A DNA stretch of 64,000 nucleotides from Halorientalis regularis (GTDB lineage Archaea; Halobacteriota; Halobacteria; Halobacteriales; Haloarculaceae): the NCBI RefSeq assembly GCF_023698535.1, contig NZ_JALJCL010000014.1, forward strand, positions 46,467 through 110,466, in the 5' to 3' direction. Shown in pieces: positions 19,127-36,384 of the stretch. Position numbers and translations under genes: made by a program. Every line of letters starts with the position of its first letter. Positions within the stretch are counted from its first letter, which is position 1. Under the pieces are notes generated by a model. That model did not search any database and was not told where the DNA came from. It saw nothing but the letters and a program-made list of their open reading frames with translations.

Positions 19127-20416
19127 TCAACTGCGTCGGTGTGACCAGCAGCCGGCATCCGATGGTGTCGGTGGCGTGGTACCACACCGGCGCTTGTCCG
19201 TGAACTCGGCCTCGAACCCATCGGGGTAAGCGGTAAATCCGCTGTTCGGAGTCACCGTTCCGGACTTCAGGGCGAGTTGACCGTCGCCCGTCCGCCGTGA
19301 CGACTGTTGGCCCCGGCGGACGTACCGCAATCCGATATTTTTCGCTGCGTTGTAATCCGCGTTCGCTTCCGTCTCACAGGCCCGACACTCGAACCGGTCA
19401 CGAGTGGGACGGTTCGCATCGGTGACGAACCCACACTCGCCACACCGTTTCGACGTGTCGGCAGGGTCAACCTGTTCGACCGCGATGCCGTGCCGTTCAG
19501 CCTTGTACTCGACGAACTGGTAGAGTTTTCTGTAAGCCCACCTGTGCCCCCACGCATCGTCCGTTCGTTTCCGGATGTGTGTGAGGTCCTCGAAGACGAT
19601 GCGATCGCACTCGTATCGGACAGCTTCGGTGACGATTCCCTTGGAGACACGATGCATCTCGTCGCGAACGGTTCGCAGTTGGCGGCCGCTCGCCTGTTCG
19701 AGCGTTCGGTGGGCGCTTCGGGTTCCGGTCCGTTGCAGCCCAGCACGTGTCTTCTCGAATTCGCTGAGAGTGTGATGTAGCTCTCGTCCCGAAAAGAACC
19801 GCGCAGTGCTTGTGACAGCGATGTTTTCGACACCGAGGTCGACCCCGAGAACCGTTCCGTCCTCGGCGGTGTTCGGTTGGTTGTTCGATTTCGGGCGTCG
19901 AAAACCGAGATGGAGGAAGTAGTCGTCCCCGTCAGCAGTGAGCGTGCTTTCGGTCACTTCCCAGCGTTCCGAATCAAGGAACCGCCACTGAAATCCGTCG
20001 TCGTCTTCCGGAAGGACGAGCGGACAGCGAATCCGGTTTTCGGTCGTACTGAGAGACACCGTCTCGTCGTCGAACAGCGTCAGCGTTCGAGAATCGTACG
20101 TCACTGTCGGCGCAGTGAACCGTGGCGTGCTGGCTTTCTCCCCCCTCGATCTGCGCTCGATACAGCCAGTTATCGCCTCTGCGGCTTGGTGTGTGGCGAG
20201 AATCGCATGTTGGCTCCCGAGATCGGTCTGCTCACGCAGGGGATCGTAGGCGAGTGACTGGACATCCGACTTCGCCTGACAGCGGTTCCACGCGAGGTCG
20301 GTCGCGATCTGACATCCACGCTTCCACTCGGATATCGTCTCTTCGAGTAGCGCGCGCTGCTCGTCGGAAACGTCGAGACGAGTGATCGCGGTCCGATACA
20401 CGCAGTCGTCCGCCAC
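19127..20416 (-). CDS. tnpB: TnpB (RNA-guided nuclease, IS200/IS605 type), copy 1
   Basis: A 429-residue TnpB. The RuvC triad appears intact: Asp193 in [13 protein letters not shown], Glu276 in RIVFEDLTHIRKR and Asp354 in [11 protein letters not shown] zinc finger CGECG...CRAC uses Cys325, 328, 344 and 347. The N-terminal half is the usual helical/wedge region. TnpB is guided by an RNA made from the element's right end and helps retain the element. No TnpA transposase accompanies it, so it is a solitary IS1341-type gene. The C-terminal 40 residues are unlike the other two copies, suggesting a rearranged end. Confidence 0.93.
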   Translation of the reverse strand: MADDCVYRTAITRLDVSDEQRALLEETISEWKRGCQIATDLAWNRCQAKSDVQSLAYDPLREQTDLGSQHAILATHQAAEAITGCIERRSRGEKASTPRFTAPTVTYDSRTLTLFDDETVSLSTTENRIRCPLVLPEDDDGFQWRFLDSERWEVTESTLTADGDDYFLHLGFRRPKSNNQPNTAEDGTVLGVDLGVENIAVTSTARFFSGRELHHTLSEFEKTRAGLQRTGTRSAHRTLEQASGRQLRTVRDEMHRVSKGIVTEAVRYECDRIVFEDLTHIRKRTDDAWGHRWAYRKLYQFVEYKAERHGIAVEQVDPADTSKRCGECGFVTDANRPTRDRFECRACETEANADYNAAKNIGLRYVRRGQQSSRRTGDGQLALKSGTVTPNSGFTAYPDGFEAEFTDKRRCGTTPPTPSDAGCWSHRRS

Positions 20417-20762: not shown

Positions 20763-22073
20763 TTATGGGTGGACTTCAGGAAGAGCAGCATCAACCAGTT
20801 CAGTCTGTTTTTCGACGGGAAGAGGTTCCAATTGAGAATGGCATTTTTTACAGACAGTTACTAAATTCGTTAGATCATTTGCTTTGTCTAAGATACGTTC
20901 GACGGCCTTTCGGTCAGATTCGGATAGAGATTCTTCCGAACGAATGTCATCTTTTAGCTTGTCCGGCAGTATTTCAAAAAAGGACATAATTTTGTGAAGA
21001 TGGTGAACCTCTAAATCACGATCATAGATATCGGTATGCTCCTCCGAAGTCAAGCCACAACTACGGCACTTGTAATTATCGCGCTCACGGGCTTGTTCAG
21101 CGATATTACGCCAATTTGAACCATACGGAAATTCCAAATAAGACCCATCATCGTACGCATACAGATCAGCAAGTTCTTTCATATCATTCCACGACTCAAA
21201 CGAGTTTTTCATCACCCACGGTACTGGGTCTGTAGGACGCCGATGCCTCCTATATTCTCGTATTCTTGGACTCCGGCCAATTTTTTCAGCCACATATTGG
21301 AGTGCCTCGATGCATTCCTCTTCAGTATATTGGGACGGTTGAGGTAACAGCCCAGCGCTATCTAACGCCTGATTCCACGAGCCAAAGAGTCGCATTATCG
21401 TATCTACGGACGGGTCTGTTGGCTGTTTTAATTTGAGATACACCCTTTTTGATAACTGTCCGTCATGCTGTTCACTGACACGGGATATAGAATTGATTAC
21501 TTCTGATTTAGTCCATCCATGCTTCTCCACAACCTCAAGACCCGCGGCCTCCTTCGCGGCATTCCAAGATGAGAATTGATGCTTTATGTTAGCCGCAGAG
21601 ATTTCACCCTCAGAAATTGTGTTGTCATATTCTCTTTGACTGGGGCTCTTCCCAAGCTGATTCGCAACTTTACGGAGCGCACGAACACACTCCTCCTTTG
21701 AGGGCCCATCAGGGCCCGAAGAACAGGGGGATAATCCAGCGGCTTCCTTTGCTGTATTCCATGAATCAAATAATCCCTTGTAGGCACCCACGTTCGGTTC
21801 ATCTTTGCGCGAAACCTGCTTATATTCCTCTAAAGTAGGGCTTCTGCCCAAGCGATCTGCGACTCGTTGTAGTGCATCAATGTATTCGTCTCGTGAGGGA
21901 CTAACCTCTCCTCCAGTCGGTCTTCGGTCAATATCGTGTTTCTTCATCCAACGTAGAATAGTGTCTCCAGAAACCCCAACAATATCTCCGATCTCTTTGA
22001 GATTTAATTCCTCTTCCCAATATTTCTCTCGGAGCCAATCTGCATTTCTGTATTTTTTCGAGTTCTCAGTCAT
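20763..22073 (-). CDS. HNH endonuclease with four homing-endonuclease-associated repeats
   Basis: A 436-residue protein. The N-terminus has a resolvase-like HTH (LKEIGDIVGVSGDTILRWMK). Four repeats of about 60 residues then follow, each with a helix like ALQRVADRLGRSPTLEEY and ending SWNxAKEAAGL (copies end near residues 113, 179, 244 and 310, the last as SWNDMKELADL). These match the homing endonuclease-associated repeat. The C-terminus is an HNH domain: CRSCG, DLEVHHLHKI with the catalytic His pair, and TVCKKCHSQ. The DNA is visibly AT-richer than its neighbours, with different codon use, implying recent transfer. No intron or intein host is visible. Confidence 0.88.
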   Translation of the reverse strand: MTENSKKYRNADWLREKYWEEELNLKEIGDIVGVSGDTILRWMKKHDIDRRPTGGEVSPSRDEYIDALQRVADRLGRSPTLEEYKQVSRKDEPNVGAYKGLFDSWNTAKEAAGLSPCSSGPDGPSKEECVRALRKVANQLGKSPSQREYDNTISEGEISAANIKHQFSSWNAAKEAAGLEVVEKHGWTKSEVINSISRVSEQHDGQLSKRVYLKLKQPTDPSVDTIMRLFGSWNQALDSAGLLPQPSQYTEEECIEALQYVAEKIGRSPRIREYRRHRRPTDPVPWVMKNSFESWNDMKELADLYAYDDGSYLEFPYGSNWRNIAEQARERDNYKCRSCGLTSEEHTDIYDRDLEVHHLHKIMSFFEILPDKLKDDIRSEESLSESDRKAVERILDKANDLTNLVTVCKKCHSQLEPLPVEKQTELVDAALPEVHP

Positions 22074-22389: not shown

Positions 22390-23643
22390 CTACCCACCAC
22401 TAAGGTCGTGGGATTCAGCGTGGACTCCTGTTCTAACCTCTGGCGAGGCAGGGGAATAGTCTCCGTTCACGTTCAGCGTCCCGCTGTTCAAGCGCACGCC
22501 CAAGGGTGCGCCTCCATCGCCCCCGGTTTGGTTGCGACGGAGATACCGTAAGCCGATGTTTTTTGCAGCGTTGTAATCCGCGTGGTTCTGATAGCCGCAG
22601 TTCAGACACTCGAAGTCCTCACCATCGCGGTTATCAAGATGCGTGAACCCACAGTGCGAACACCGCCGCGACGTGTTCTCTGGATCAACCTGCTCAACCT
22701 CAATCCCGTGTTCTTCGGCCTTGTACTCTACGTATTCGTAGAGACGGTCGAACGCCCACTGGTGACCCCACGACGCACCAGTTCGCTCGCGGATGTTAGT
22801 CAAACCCTCGAACACAATCACCGAACATCCATTTTCGCAGGCTTCTGCGACGATCTCGTTGCTAATGCGGTGCAGTATCACTTTGAACCGCCCTTCCTCT
22901 TTTTGCCCCACGGACTGGATATTCTCGTGTGCCCATCGGGTCCCGCACTGCTGGAGGGATTCACGACGGTTCTCGTATTCTCTGCGCCAGTGATCGAATT
23001 CCCCGCCTGTCCAGAACGTGCCCGTCGAGGTGACGGCGAGGGTGTTCACGCCGAGGTCAACCCCGAGAACCGTTCCGTTCTCAGTGGTTGTCTGTGACGA
23101 TGTGTCAGACTCCACTTCATTCTTGCAACGGATGTGAAGTATCCAGTCACCGTTACGATAGTGCAGTTCCGCACCCGTGGTTTCGTACGCGTCTGAAAAC
23201 AGGTACTCTGAGTGCGGTGTGTCGCTGTCCTCGTCGGGAAGCACGTACTCGGCTTCGATTCGTCCGTCGGTGGTAGCGAGGCTCACATAATCGTCATGAA
23301 ACGTCGCGGTGCGCTTGTCATAGACGACGTGCGGACTGGTGAACTGGGGTTTAGACGCGCTCTTGTCCTGCTTCCAGCGTGCGACCACGCTCTTGCAGGC
23401 TTCGGCGGCCTTGTTTCTCGCTGCTTGTACCAGTCCACCGTTGAAGCCGTCAGTCTGCTCGCGTACGTCGTCGTAGGTTTCATCGTCCAACGTCGTCTTG
23501 CTGGTGGTAACGTACCCGCCCTGAAACGCGTAGTCAACGACGTACTGTGCCGACCAGAGGAACGCATCGACGGTGTCTTCGAGGAGTGCAGCGTCGTCAC
23601 TGGCCACGTCGAGTGCAACGGGCACGGTACGCCGCACTTCCAC
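22390..23643 (-). CDS. tnpB: TnpB (RNA-guided nuclease), copy 2
   Basis: A 417-residue TnpB with an intact RuvC triad: Asp196 in [13 protein letters not shown], Glu279 in [13 protein letters not shown] and Asp356 in [10 protein letters not shown]. The zinc finger is CSHCG...CLNC (Cys328, 331, 346, 349). The last codons (ending ESHDLSGG, then stop) themselves form a hairpin, CCCAC with GTGGTGGG, which is where the guide RNA scaffold normally ends. The sequence just beyond would be the guide. Solitary, with no TnpA. It sits directly upstream of the integrase remnant, which it probably truncated. Confidence 0.94.
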
Positions 23644-32727: not shown

Positions 32728-33456
32728 TCACCGGCCCGACAACCGCGCGGCGTCGGCGGGATCGAGGGTCAGGACCCGGTCGGTCGCGTCGGGTTCGAAC
32801 CGGAGCGGGCGACGCCACCACGGCCCCTTCCCGGAATCGGCCGAGAGGGCGGTCACGACGGCGTTGGCCTGGCTTCCGGTCGACGAATCGCTCAGTGGGA
32901 CGGCGGTGTCGTACAGCCCCGACGCGTCGGGATCACCGTGGACCAGCACGCGCGCGTCGAACGGGTCGCGTTTGACGTGGGCGTTGTTGGCGAAGGCGGC
33001 TCGGGCCTCGGCATCGGCGGGCAATTCGCGGTACTGTTCGCCCGTCAGGGGGTCCCGGGCCAGTCGGAACTGGCCGATCAGGAACGCGCCCCACTCGGGC
33101 GGGGCCCAGTCGGGCCGGTCCCCGTCGGTGGCGAGTGTCGCGTAGAACAGCAGGTAGTCGCCGGCCGCGAGGTCGAGGATGGGGGCAGCTTTCACGCCGT
33201 TGGGATCGCCGTAGGTGTAGCGGTCACAGCCAGGATACGCCGCGAACTCCGGGTCGAGGTGGACCGGGTGAGACCGGTAGTCCTCGGGCACGTCGGTGGT
33301 TAGGTCGAGGTCGGCGTAGGTCGGGACGGTCGCGTCGGTATGGGTGGGTTCTGCCTCGGGGATGGGGACGTACTCGAAACTGCCGTCCGAAAAGAGCGGG
33401 CCGCGGACGCCGGGCTCGTTGGTGTTGGCGGCGACGTTGATCGCGACGCTACGCAT
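32728..33456 (-). CDS. Nmad3-like putative nucleotide-modification protein
   Basis: A 242-residue protein. The pattern VAINVAANTNEPGVRGPLFS with DGSFEYVPIPEAEPT, then YTYGD, LDLAAGDYLLFYATLA, FLIGQFRLARDP and NAHVKRDP, fits the nucleotide modification-associated domain 3 (Nmad3), proposed from genome context to act in modified-base systems. The match is from memory of the family pattern. The biochemical activity is unknown. No restriction or DNA-modification gene is adjacent here, so the role may differ. Confidence 0.7.
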   Translation of the reverse strand: MRSVAINVAANTNEPGVRGPLFSDGSFEYVPIPEAEPTHTDATVPTYADLDLTTDVPEDYRSHPVHLDPEFAAYPGCDRYTYGDPNGVKAAPILDLAAGDYLLFYATLATDGDRPDWAPPEWGAFLIGQFRLARDPLTGEQYRELPADAEARAAFANNAHVKRDPFDARVLVHGDPDASGLYDTAVPLSDSSTGSQANAVVTALSADSGKGPWWRRPLRFEPDATDRVLTLDPADAARLSGR

Positions 33457-33768: not shown

Positions 33769-34088
33769 GCCGTGTGATAGGGTGTCACGGTACTTGGCTT
33801 TTCCGTCGGTTGCAGGGGCCGAGGGGGAGCCGGTCGGGACGGGACAGTACGGGCGGGACCGTGTTCAGCAGTTTCGAGGCAGAGCCCCCGGCCTCAAGGA
33901 GCGAGAGCTTCTGACTGGTCGGAAGCGCGAAGCGAGTAGGCCGGGGAGGACAACGCGGAACGGAGTTCCGCGGGCCGTGCGAGCGGGCAAAGCCCGCGCG
34001 CAGAAGCCGACACTCCCCGACACACATGACGGGACTGTCGCTGTCCGACTCCCGATCTATTGAGAACCGTCGGAACGGCACCTGAAAT
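33769..34088. other. 320-base gap with three hairpins, left flank of TnpB copy 3
   Basis: No protein gene. Three hairpins occur in a row: CCCCGGCCT (33886-33894) with AGGCCGGGG (33938-33946), GCGGAAC (33955-33961) with GTTCCGC (33965-33971), and GCGGGC (33983-33988) with GCCCGC (33992-33997). The first resembles the terminal hairpin found after TnpB copy 3. Confidence 0.7.
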
Positions 34089-35345
34089 ATGGAGGTCAGA
34101 CGTACCGCGCCGGTCAAACTCGTTGTTCCCGACGAGTACCGCGACGACCTCCACGAAACTGCCGAGCAATTCCTCTACTGTGCGAACGAGGCAAGTGACT
34201 ACTGCTGGGACAACACCGACTACGAAGACTGTATCACCTCGAATGTGACAGCCAGAGACGCGCTCTACGACCGACTCCGCGAAGAAACCGACCTGACAGC
34301 GAACCTCGTTCAAGAAGCCATTCGGCGTGCTATCCACGCCGTCGATAGTGGTGTTGACCGCTGGAAGAAGGGCAAGCGGACGAACAAACCGGAGTTCACC
34401 TCGTGGAGTGTGGTCTACGACAAGCGGAGTGCGACGTTCTACCGGAACGAGATCTCGCTTTCGACGGTGAACGGACGCATCGAGTGTGACTTTGAGTTGC
34501 CGGCAGATAGTCCAACACCATACGAGGAGTACGTGCTTTCGGACGACTACGAGTTTCGGACGAGTACACTCCAATACGACCAAGCGACCGACGGGTTTTA
34601 CTTCCACATCAAAACGCGGAAGGTAGATACAGACGGTGAGGCTGTTGAAATCGGGAGTTCGGACGATACCGGGCACCAGACAGTCCTCGGGATCGACCTT
34701 GGTGTGAACAGCCTTGCCGTTTCGTCAACGGGCACGTTCTGGAGTGGCGACGAGTACGACCACTGGATTCACGAGTTCGAGAAGCGCCGGGCAGAGATGC
34801 AACAGCGTGGCACACAAGCCGCTCATAACGCCTTGCTTCGACTTGGAAAGCGAGAGCGAGCATGGCGCAAACAGTACATCCACACAGTCGCCAACGAGGT
34901 CGTTGAGGAGGCGGTTGTCCACGACTGCGACGTGATCGTGTTCGCGGATTTGACCGACATCCGAGGGCGGCTGCCCCACGCTGACTGGCATCACATCTGG
35001 GCATTTCGCCGTCTTGTCGAGTACGTCGAATACAAAGCGCCAGAACGGAGTATGGCTGTTGAGCAGGTCGAACCCGCCCACACCAGTCAGCGGTGTTCTC
35101 GTACTGACTGTGGGTTTACTCACGAAGACAACCGCGACGGCGAGCAGTTCCAGTGCCTCAACTGCGGGTGCGAAATCAACGCGGACTACGACGGCGCGAA
35201 AAACGTCGGCCTGCGGTATCTGCGGAAGCGACAACACAGACTGCGTTCCTCGCCCACGCCGGGGAGCGCAGACGCACCAGTAGACGTGCGTGTAAATGGT
35301 GGGATGCTGAACGGCGACGGCTATCGGCCAACCGCCGAGAGCTGA
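34089..35345 (+). CDS. tnpB: TnpB copy 3, predicted nuclease-dead
   Basis: A 418-residue TnpB, full length and in frame. RuvC Asp203 (VLGIDLGVNSLAV) and Asp366 (NADYDGAKN) are kept, but the catalytic Glu is replaced by Ala286 in VIVFADLTDIRGR (codon GCG at 34944-34946). The two other TnpB copies here have FEDL and FEGL at this place. The zinc finger is also altered: CSRTDC has two extra residues between Cys336 and Cys341, followed by CLNC. Loss of the Glu should abolish cleavage while RNA and DNA binding may remain, as in TnpB-derived repressors (TldR). No TnpA. A strongly structured segment follows. Confidence 0.93.
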   Translation: MEVRRTAPVKLVVPDEYRDDLHETAEQFLYCANEASDYCWDNTDYEDCITSNVTARDALYDRLREETDLTANLVQEAIRRAIHAVDSGVDRWKKGKRTNKPEFTSWSVVYDKRSATFYRNEISLSTVNGRIECDFELPADSPTPYEEYVLSDDYEFRTSTLQYDQATDGFYFHIKTRKVDTDGEAVEIGSSDDTGHQTVLGIDLGVNSLAVSSTGTFWSGDEYDHWIHEFEKRRAEMQQRGTQAAHNALLRLGKRERAWRKQYIHTVANEVVEEAVVHDCDVIVFADLTDIRGRLPHADWHHIWAFRRLVEYVEYKAPERSMAVEQVEPAHTSQRCSRTDCGFTHEDNRDGEQFQCLNCGCEINADYDGAKNVGLRYLRKRQHRLRSSPTPGSADAPVDVRVNGGMLNGDGYRPTAES

Positions 35346-35366
35346 TCGCCGGGAGTCCACATCAAA

Positions 35367-35474
35367 GCCACCGAAAGGCGAAGCCTTTCGAGGCCTCGAT
35401 AGAGCTCCGCTCTATCGGTGGCCCCACCCTCAACGAGCGAACCCCCTGCGGGTGAGCGAAGTAGGGTGGGGTAG
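35367..35474 (+). ncRNA. Putative omegaRNA (reRNA) scaffold of TnpB copy 3
   Basis: Just after the tnpB stop, GCCACC (35367) pairs with GGTGGC (35417-35422) to enclose two perfect hairpins, CGAAAGGC/GCCTTTCG (35372-35390, loop GAA) and CGATAGAGC/GCTCTATCG (35397-35417, loop TCC). A long terminal stem follows: CCCCACCCT (35422-35430) with AGGGTGGGG (35463-35471), then TAG. TnpB guide RNAs are made from exactly this region. The guide would be the next 16 or so bases from about 35475, which run into the end of the convergent acyltransferase gene. Confidence 0.65.
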
Positions 35475-35475
35475 T

Positions 35476-36384
35476 TTACCTGTCGGGCGGCGAGAGGTCC
35501 CGCTGGAACTCGTCGAACACGTCCACGTCGGGCACGTCGTACTCGACGACGCGCTCGTCGCTACGGTCGACGTTAGCGTCCTCGATGGGGTCGGCAACGC
35601 GCTCCCAGCCCTCCTTGATCGCGATGGATTTGGCGGGCTGGCCGGCGGCGATGTGGTGGGCCGGCACGTCCTTGCCGGCGATGGATTTCGCCGCGAGAAT
35701 GGAGTTCTCGCCCATGCGCACGCCCGCCTGCACCATCGAGTCGTAGGTGACGCGCACGTCGTCCTCGATGATGGTGTGGTAGTCGGTGACTTCGGTCTGG
35801 TCGACCACGTCGTGGTCGTGGGTGTAGACGTGGGCGTTGTCGGAGATCGACACGCGGTCGCCGACGGTGAGCGTCCCGCGGTCATCGAGGTGGACATCGT
35901 CGTGGACGACCACGTTGTCGCCCAGTTCGATGTTGTGGCCGAAGGTGAACGTGATCCCCTTGAACAGCCGGAGGTCGTCACCGGCCTCGGCGAACAGGTG
36001 ATCGGCGAGCATCTGGCGGAAGCGCAGAGCGAAGGCGATGTTGTCGGCCATCGGCGTGGCGTCGAACTGTCGCCAGAGCCACTGGAGGTGCTTCGAGCGC
36101 TCGTATTCGCCCTCGTCCATGCCCGCGACCTCGGCGTAGTACTCGCTCTCCAGGGTCGCGTTACAGGGGTCGTACCCCTGCAGTCGGACGCGTTCGGCCG
36201 GCGACACCGACTCGCCGGACTGCCAGCGTTCGTAGGCCTGGCGGTCGCCGTGGAGGTCCACGAGTACGTCCTCGACCACGTCGCATGTGTTCTCGTCACT
36301 GCTGAGGCGCTCGTCGACCTCGTCGATGAACGCCCGGAGCCCCTGTTCGGCCAGGGGCGGCAACGAGACGTGACGCTTCGTCAT
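35476..36384 (-). CDS. Hexapeptide-repeat acyltransferase-like protein
   Basis: A 302-residue protein. The N-terminal 120 residues are helical (MTKRHVSLPPLAEQGLRAFI, YERWQSGESVSPAERVRLQG). From about residue 130 a left-handed beta helix begins, with hexapeptide-like turns IELGDNVVVHDDVHLDDRGT, LTVGDRVSISDNAHVYTHDH, VRVTYDSMVQAGVRMGENSI and AGKDVPAHHIAAGQPAKSI. This pattern is that of maltose/galactoside O-acetyltransferases; His residues in YTHDHD may act in catalysis. The acceptor is unknown. The stop codon lies directly beside the putative TnpB guide region. Confidence 0.85.
   Translation of the reverse strand: MTKRHVSLPPLAEQGLRAFIDEVDERLSSDENTCDVVEDVLVDLHGDRQAYERWQSGESVSPAERVRLQGYDPCNATLESEYYAEVAGMDEGEYERSKHLQWLWRQFDATPMADNIAFALRFRQMLADHLFAEAGDDLRLFKGITFTFGHNIELGDNVVVHDDVHLDDRGTLTVGDRVSISDNAHVYTHDHDVVDQTEVTDYHTIIEDDVRVTYDSMVQAGVRMGENSILAAKSIAGKDVPAHHIAAGQPAKSIAIKEGWERVADPIEDANVDRSDERVVEYDVPDVDVFDEFQRDLSPPDR

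Follow-up and report, generated by a model that had tools for sequence, protein, structure and literature searches.

The window, a stretch of 64,000 nucleotides from contig NZ_JALJCL010000014.1 of Halorientalis regularis, contains three tnpB genes, one of which is part of a complete IS1341-type element inserted next to a transferase gene. The element and its surroundings comprise the following features, with coordinates referring to the window:

33864-35479, tnpB on (+): complete IS1341-type element with both ends and a predicted omegaRNA
33864-33867 (+): TTCA of the left flank, a target- or TAM-like motif directly before the left end (26 flanks; alignment with 23 relatives)
33868-34088 (+): left end, with an extra hairpin-like segment of about 52 bases at 33951-34002
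34089-35345 (+): tnpB, 418 aa, with Asp203, Ala286 and Asp366 (NF040570, PF07282, PF01385)
34944-34946 (+): codon 286, GCG (Ala), at the RuvC-II Glu position
35190-35192 (+): codon 368, GAC (Asp), Asn in 119 of 120 relatives
35230-35479 (+): predicted omegaRNA scaffold, formed by the tnpB 3' end and the right end; the 5' limit at 35230 is provisional
35367-35422 (+): extra two-hairpin module within the predicted omegaRNA, also present in the related locus L034
35480-35499 (+): predicted guide, comprising the 20 bases that follow the right end (TAGTTTAC) and running antisense to the last part of the transferase gene
35476-36384 (-): hexapeptide-repeat transferase gene, 302 aa (PF00132, 30.1 bits against a cut-off of 27)

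Both boundaries were placed by alignment with 23 relatives. On the left side TTCA at 33864 is followed by GCAGTTTCGAGGC, and on the right side the element terminates at 35479, from where the sequence continues with the guide. The four bases preceding the left ends were compared for 26 distinct flanks and read TTCA in 13, ATCA in six, CTCA in four, GTCA in two and GTCG in one of them. No tnpA was found within the element. Five matches to Y1 transposases, one of them with an internal stop, are located elsewhere in the genome, compared with 36 TnpB-like stretches including several broken TnpB copies; the genome thus carries a heavy load of TnpB-only elements.

The predicted fold of the 3' part of the element is much more stable than that of shuffled controls (z -8.3). 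In the omegaRNA consensus derived from 25 sequences, 58 pairs are formed with 98.5% of the cells paired, and double-sided changes are found at 16 of these pairs (76 such cells versus 22 in shuffles). All 58 consensus pairs are kept in the window copy. The hairpin-rich stretches 33951-34002 and 35367-35422 are missing in most of the aligned relatives, and a few others have altered versions of them (L053 for the left and L034 for the right one); the two-hairpin module of L034 carries matching changes in both arms. An Rfam search over 33800-35600 returned no match at E values up to 0.5.

The tnpB frame starts with ATG and is uninterrupted. Its product scores 153.1 bits with the family model NF040570 (guided_TnpB, cut-off 100) and matches both PF07282 and PF01385. 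The RuvC-I motif reads GIDLGV at residues 201-206, thus with DLG and not DPG. The D-E-D triad of the RuvC domain is incomplete, with Ala in the second position, and this substitution depends on the middle base of the codon, a C at 34945. At 19127-20416 (-) and 22390-23643 (-) the window holds two further TnpB genes that match the same families and encode Glu at this position, in agreement with the initial annotation, which had singled out the present copy among the three. The initial annotation had furthermore described an open frame with both other RuvC aspartates retained and had equated Ala286 with the catalytic Glu, and these statements hold as well. In an alignment with relatives of 70-90% identity (the best 120 of 1364 matches) the column of Ala286 contains Glu in 120 of 120 relatives, and all 121 sequences, the window copy included, retain both aspartates, Asp203 and Asp366. 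Consistently, in the phmmer alignment with AsCas12f1 (PDB code 8j12) Ala286 falls on the E of 'QMEDLTNIR'. The two-residue insertion in the zinc finger (Cx4C), which the initial annotation had also pointed out, is indeed present; however, it is shared by 117 of the 120 relatives and is therefore no peculiarity of this copy.

In ISDra2 TnpB the catalytic triad is formed by D191, E278 and D361, as given in PMC10097598, and its E278A variant is termed catalytically dead in the context of an interference assay in PMC8612924. The window copy carries the same replacement at the same residue position as this laboratory variant, but it is a natural protein of a haloarchaeal relative, and its inactivity is predicted from sequence. 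Taken together, the loss of the Glu, the intact frame, the intact predicted omegaRNA and the behavior of ISDra2 E278A allow for the fair prediction of a protein that would bind DNA in an RNA-guided manner without cutting it, so that this part of the initial proposal can be retained. The gene would accordingly be classified as the inactivated copy of an IS1341-type element, not as an active TnpB.

With a single base deciding, an error in sequencing or assembly at 34945 has to be considered. Against this stand other unusual replacements close by (E293G, N368D and Y361C), and the genome holds no near-identical copy that could have caused a collapse of the assembly, the next best being about 50% identical. 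Such an error is thus highly improbable.

Another explanation would be a nuclease that has remained active, with a different carboxylate, for instance Asp368 beside Asp366, filling the metal site. Asp368 is located two residues past the catalytic Asp366 and is the sole acidic residue unique to the window copy. It replaces an Asn that is conserved not only in the family itself but also in 120 of 120 members (the best 120 of 2702 matches) of a second, distant TnpB family. Two structure models are both weak at residues 360-368, too weak for an assessment of metal binding by Asp368. Relocation of the catalytic Glu to a site six residues before the zinc finger is known for TnpB-like proteins (PMC10711439), and such an arrangement is found in six distant TnpBs of the same genome (L012, L015, L016, L017, L018 and L019), in which Gly occupies the canonical RuvC-II position and Glu the relocated site; four of these (L015, L016, L017 and L019) have Y1 tnpA matches close by coordinates. 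However, the window copy has Pro329 at this known relocation site, which lies six residues ahead of the zinc finger's first Cys, and the Fanzor-type relocated Glu that was looked for is consequently absent. Glu328 is found in 97 of the 120 relatives that bear Glu286 as well and is therefore no replacement for the lost residue. With respect to the Fanzor-type TnpBs, as described in PMC10711439, the window copy thus shares the lack of a Glu at the canonical position but differs by the Pro at the alternative position and by the DLG instead of a DPG in RuvC-I. A nuclease active by means of another carboxylate is considered very unlikely.

The distribution of the substitution was followed in 391 genomes of the haloarchaeal class. 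The motif VFx[DE]LT[DE]IR, with any codon allowed at x, is matched 142 times in 101 genomes, and x is Glu in 138 copies, Gly in three and Ala in one, the latter being the window copy. Accordingly, the pattern with Glu is present in 100 of the 391 genomes, while the pattern with Ala (VF-Ala-[DE]LT[DE]IR) is limited to one, the genome studied here. In the second TnpB family this position is Glu in 120 of 120 sequences (again the best 120 of 2702). Of four matches on viral contigs, three carry Glu and one carries Asp. The idea that the Ala might be shared by haloarchaeal orthologs was not borne out, as no second copy with Ala was found among the 142 motif copies of the 391 genomes; of all the sequences examined, only the window copy carries the substitution.

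None of the three Gly copies is an intact gene. One carries a frameshift at residue 263, while the other two are nearly identical to each other, are devoid of the 5' part of the gene and contain an in-frame stop. The frameshifted copy, from Halobacterium sp. KA-4 (L065/L117, G276:C22), is the only one of the three that can be placed on the full-length nucleotide tree, where it is not sister to the window copy but groups with L025 and L058, and a shared history of the two was thus rejected. Elsewhere in the family, the loss of the Glu hence accompanies broken genes, and the window copy is the only case seen with an open frame. Gene decay as such is common in the family: of 31 fetched loci 17 hold the whole gene in a single frame, in seven a frameshift or stop splits it, and the remaining seven are incomplete or reach the end of the contig. 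The split copies thus account for seven of 24 full-length copies.

For the analysis of selection a codon set of 22 sequences was employed, from which the duplicates L024 and L028 were dropped for the count of private changes (20 sequences) and additionally three outgroups for the omega fits (17 sequences); frameshifted loci and L060 were never part of this set. On the branch leading to the window copy omega is 0.164 as compared to 0.085 elsewhere (LRT 4.67, p 0.03), the highest value of the 17 tips, although after correction for 17 tips p rises to 0.52. An omega of 1 on this branch is rejected (lnL -7896.3 versus -7879.2), which shows that most of the branch has been under constraint. Upon splitting the protein at residue 197, the nuclease half displays an omega of 0.245 versus 0.092 (LRT 5.85), ranking second of 17 after L054, and the N-terminal half an omega of 0.101 versus 0.079 (LRT 0.27), ranking fourth of 17. 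L054, the copy from Halorubrum vacuolatum, has a nuclease-half omega of 0.78 on a short branch in the presence of the catalytic Glu and may be another relaxing copy.

At columns otherwise invariant in the 19 close relatives, private changes of the window copy include V82I, E293G, V322M, Y361C, N368D and S391P. In total seven such changes were counted for the window copy, as compared to zero to seven in the 19 other sequences. Residues 286-391, a stretch chosen after inspection of the data, hold six of the seven changes and 66 of the 226 invariant columns. In the larger set of 121 sequences the window copy breaks four columns of at least 98% conservation (median one); since 15 of the 121 rows, the window copy included, break at least four highly conserved columns, it is no outlier in this respect. 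The mild increase in omega would fit a nuclease that recently stopped mattering. To a weaker degree the same pattern would be compatible with a binder still in use.

The right end of the element abuts the 3' end of the hexapeptide-repeat transferase gene, the TAA stop codon of which is now situated inside the element. In all seven genomes of the same genus that were searched the transferase gene is present, and neither the element nor its end motifs were found beside it in the fetched stretch of any of the seven. These seven loci represent the empty site and confirm the insertion; in one of them, L093, either flank matches the window at 93-94% identity. The insertion is therefore probably young. 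A single right-end-like motif was detected in L101, from another genus, but the stretch examined does not have it next to the transferase gene.

The guide following the right end is unlike those of all 25 related elements compared. Its possible targets were searched in the own genome with YTCA plus 13 guide bases, allowing up to three mismatches, which yielded 70 matches versus 48 for a reversed control pattern; as YTCA was used and not the wider NTCA, one of the three mismatches was already spent at any ATCA or GTCA site in this count. Ten of the 70 loci were extended. The best extended match comprises 17 of 20 bases next to a YTCA motif (G000:C6:79551) and is located inside a CARDB-repeat coding sequence; matches of this type are expected about 0.02 times per guide per genome, based on the background of the window itself. 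No promoter target of the guide was found among the ten extended loci; a weaker promoter site may be present among the other 60 matches.

These observations bear on the possibility, raised in the initial annotation, of a repressor resembling TldR, in which case the host would keep the dead TnpB and the guide would silence a gene. TldR-type repressors are thought to start with the loss of the TnpB nuclease, and Wiegand 2024 is reportedly the primary paper on them. In PMC13418256 TldRs are described as TnpB-like nuclease-dead repressors. The window copy resembles them in belonging to the TnpB family, in its mutated RuvC site and in the adjacent guide RNA. The missing catalytic Glu in an open frame, the complete set of omegaRNA pairs, a constrained N-terminal half next to a relaxed nuclease half and the presence of one other YTCA site with 17 matching guide bases, compared to about 0.02 expected, would all be in line with such a function. 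However, an open-frame loss of the Glu occurs in no other relative examined, so that there is no clade sharing the inactivation, and with the insertion missing in seven of seven same-genus genomes there is no stable non-transposon gene partner either. The transposon ends are intact, the guides differ in 25 of 25 related elements, and the guide itself is a copy of the 3' end of the element's own insertion target. The 17/20 match, finally, lies in a coding sequence and not in a promoter. A private change in a probably young insertion, with a guide of its own and no promoter target found among the ten extended loci of the own genome, leaves the repressor reading unsupported, and this part of the initial proposal is regarded as very unlikely, in contrast to the predicted RNA-guided binding. 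Among the papers searched, none was found in which both TldR and archaea occur as whole words.

We consider it likely that the window copy is a lone, recently inactivated copy of a TnpB-only (IS1341-type) element widespread in haloarchaea, which is predicted to bind but not to cut, rather than a domesticated repressor. It shares with the IS1341-type / IS200-IS605 TnpB-only elements, among them the family of the 120 relatives, the protein family, both ends, the 3' omegaRNA, the guide right after the right end, the NTCA-like left motif and the lack of an internal tnpA. It differs from its IS1341-type relatives by the exchange of Glu for Ala, by the unique Asp368 and by the extra hairpin module found in few of them. 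Transposition would have brought the element to a position next to an NTCA motif, where the transferase gene has its 3' end, and the Ala change may either have been carried along already or have been gained later. The dead protein would retain the ability to load the omegaRNA and to recognize NTCA plus guide, i.e. its own empty insertion site. Cutting of the empty site by TnpB promotes the retention of the element. Without cleavage, the window TnpB could not break this site and would thus not promote its own retention. Such a dead element, for which there is no known reason to be kept, would drift like other copies of the family.

The excess of changes in the nuclease half and the fully kept omegaRNA pairs would also fit an RNA-guided binder that is being kept. 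Nothing shows a domestication, although the copy may have made a start in the direction of a repressor. In a host with the polyploidy known from haloarchaea, a natural dead TnpB might block the empty copies of its own site at the transferase gene instead of acting as a homing nuclease, with the nuclease half relaxing while the RNA scaffold and the binding half stay constrained. That the window copy has reached this first step to an RNA-guided regulator appears unlikely, though less so than a repressor already in place. As a lone copy that lacks a catalytic residue but is otherwise open, it is an example of the raw material for TldR-type repressors. Such material is rare here, given that only four of the 142 motif copies lack the Glu and three of these are broken genes. 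A single open frame missing a catalytic residue is not in itself evidence of domestication, and clade sharing, a check for the empty site and guide conservation provide a cheap way to tell domestication from decay. The point of mild interest is the clean loss of the Glu combined with an intact RNA.

The frameshifted Gly copy of Halobacterium sp. KA-4 is located in a region syntenic with the window, yet at another insertion point. This region shares homologues of an Nmad3-type gene, the transferase and an aldo-keto-reductase-like gene. The two nearly identical Gly-bearing remnants, L118 (G280:C1) and L119 (G312:C29), originate from two genera and are part of five blocks of 97-99% identity amounting to about 8.5 kb, which suggests a recent exchange of the region between genera. 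In the window itself, an HNH protein with four homing-endonuclease-associated repeats (PF18780) is encoded at 20763-22073 (-) between the other two TnpB genes, and a nucleotide-modification-associated domain 3 protein (Nmad3, 165 bits) at 32728-33456 (-), near the element.
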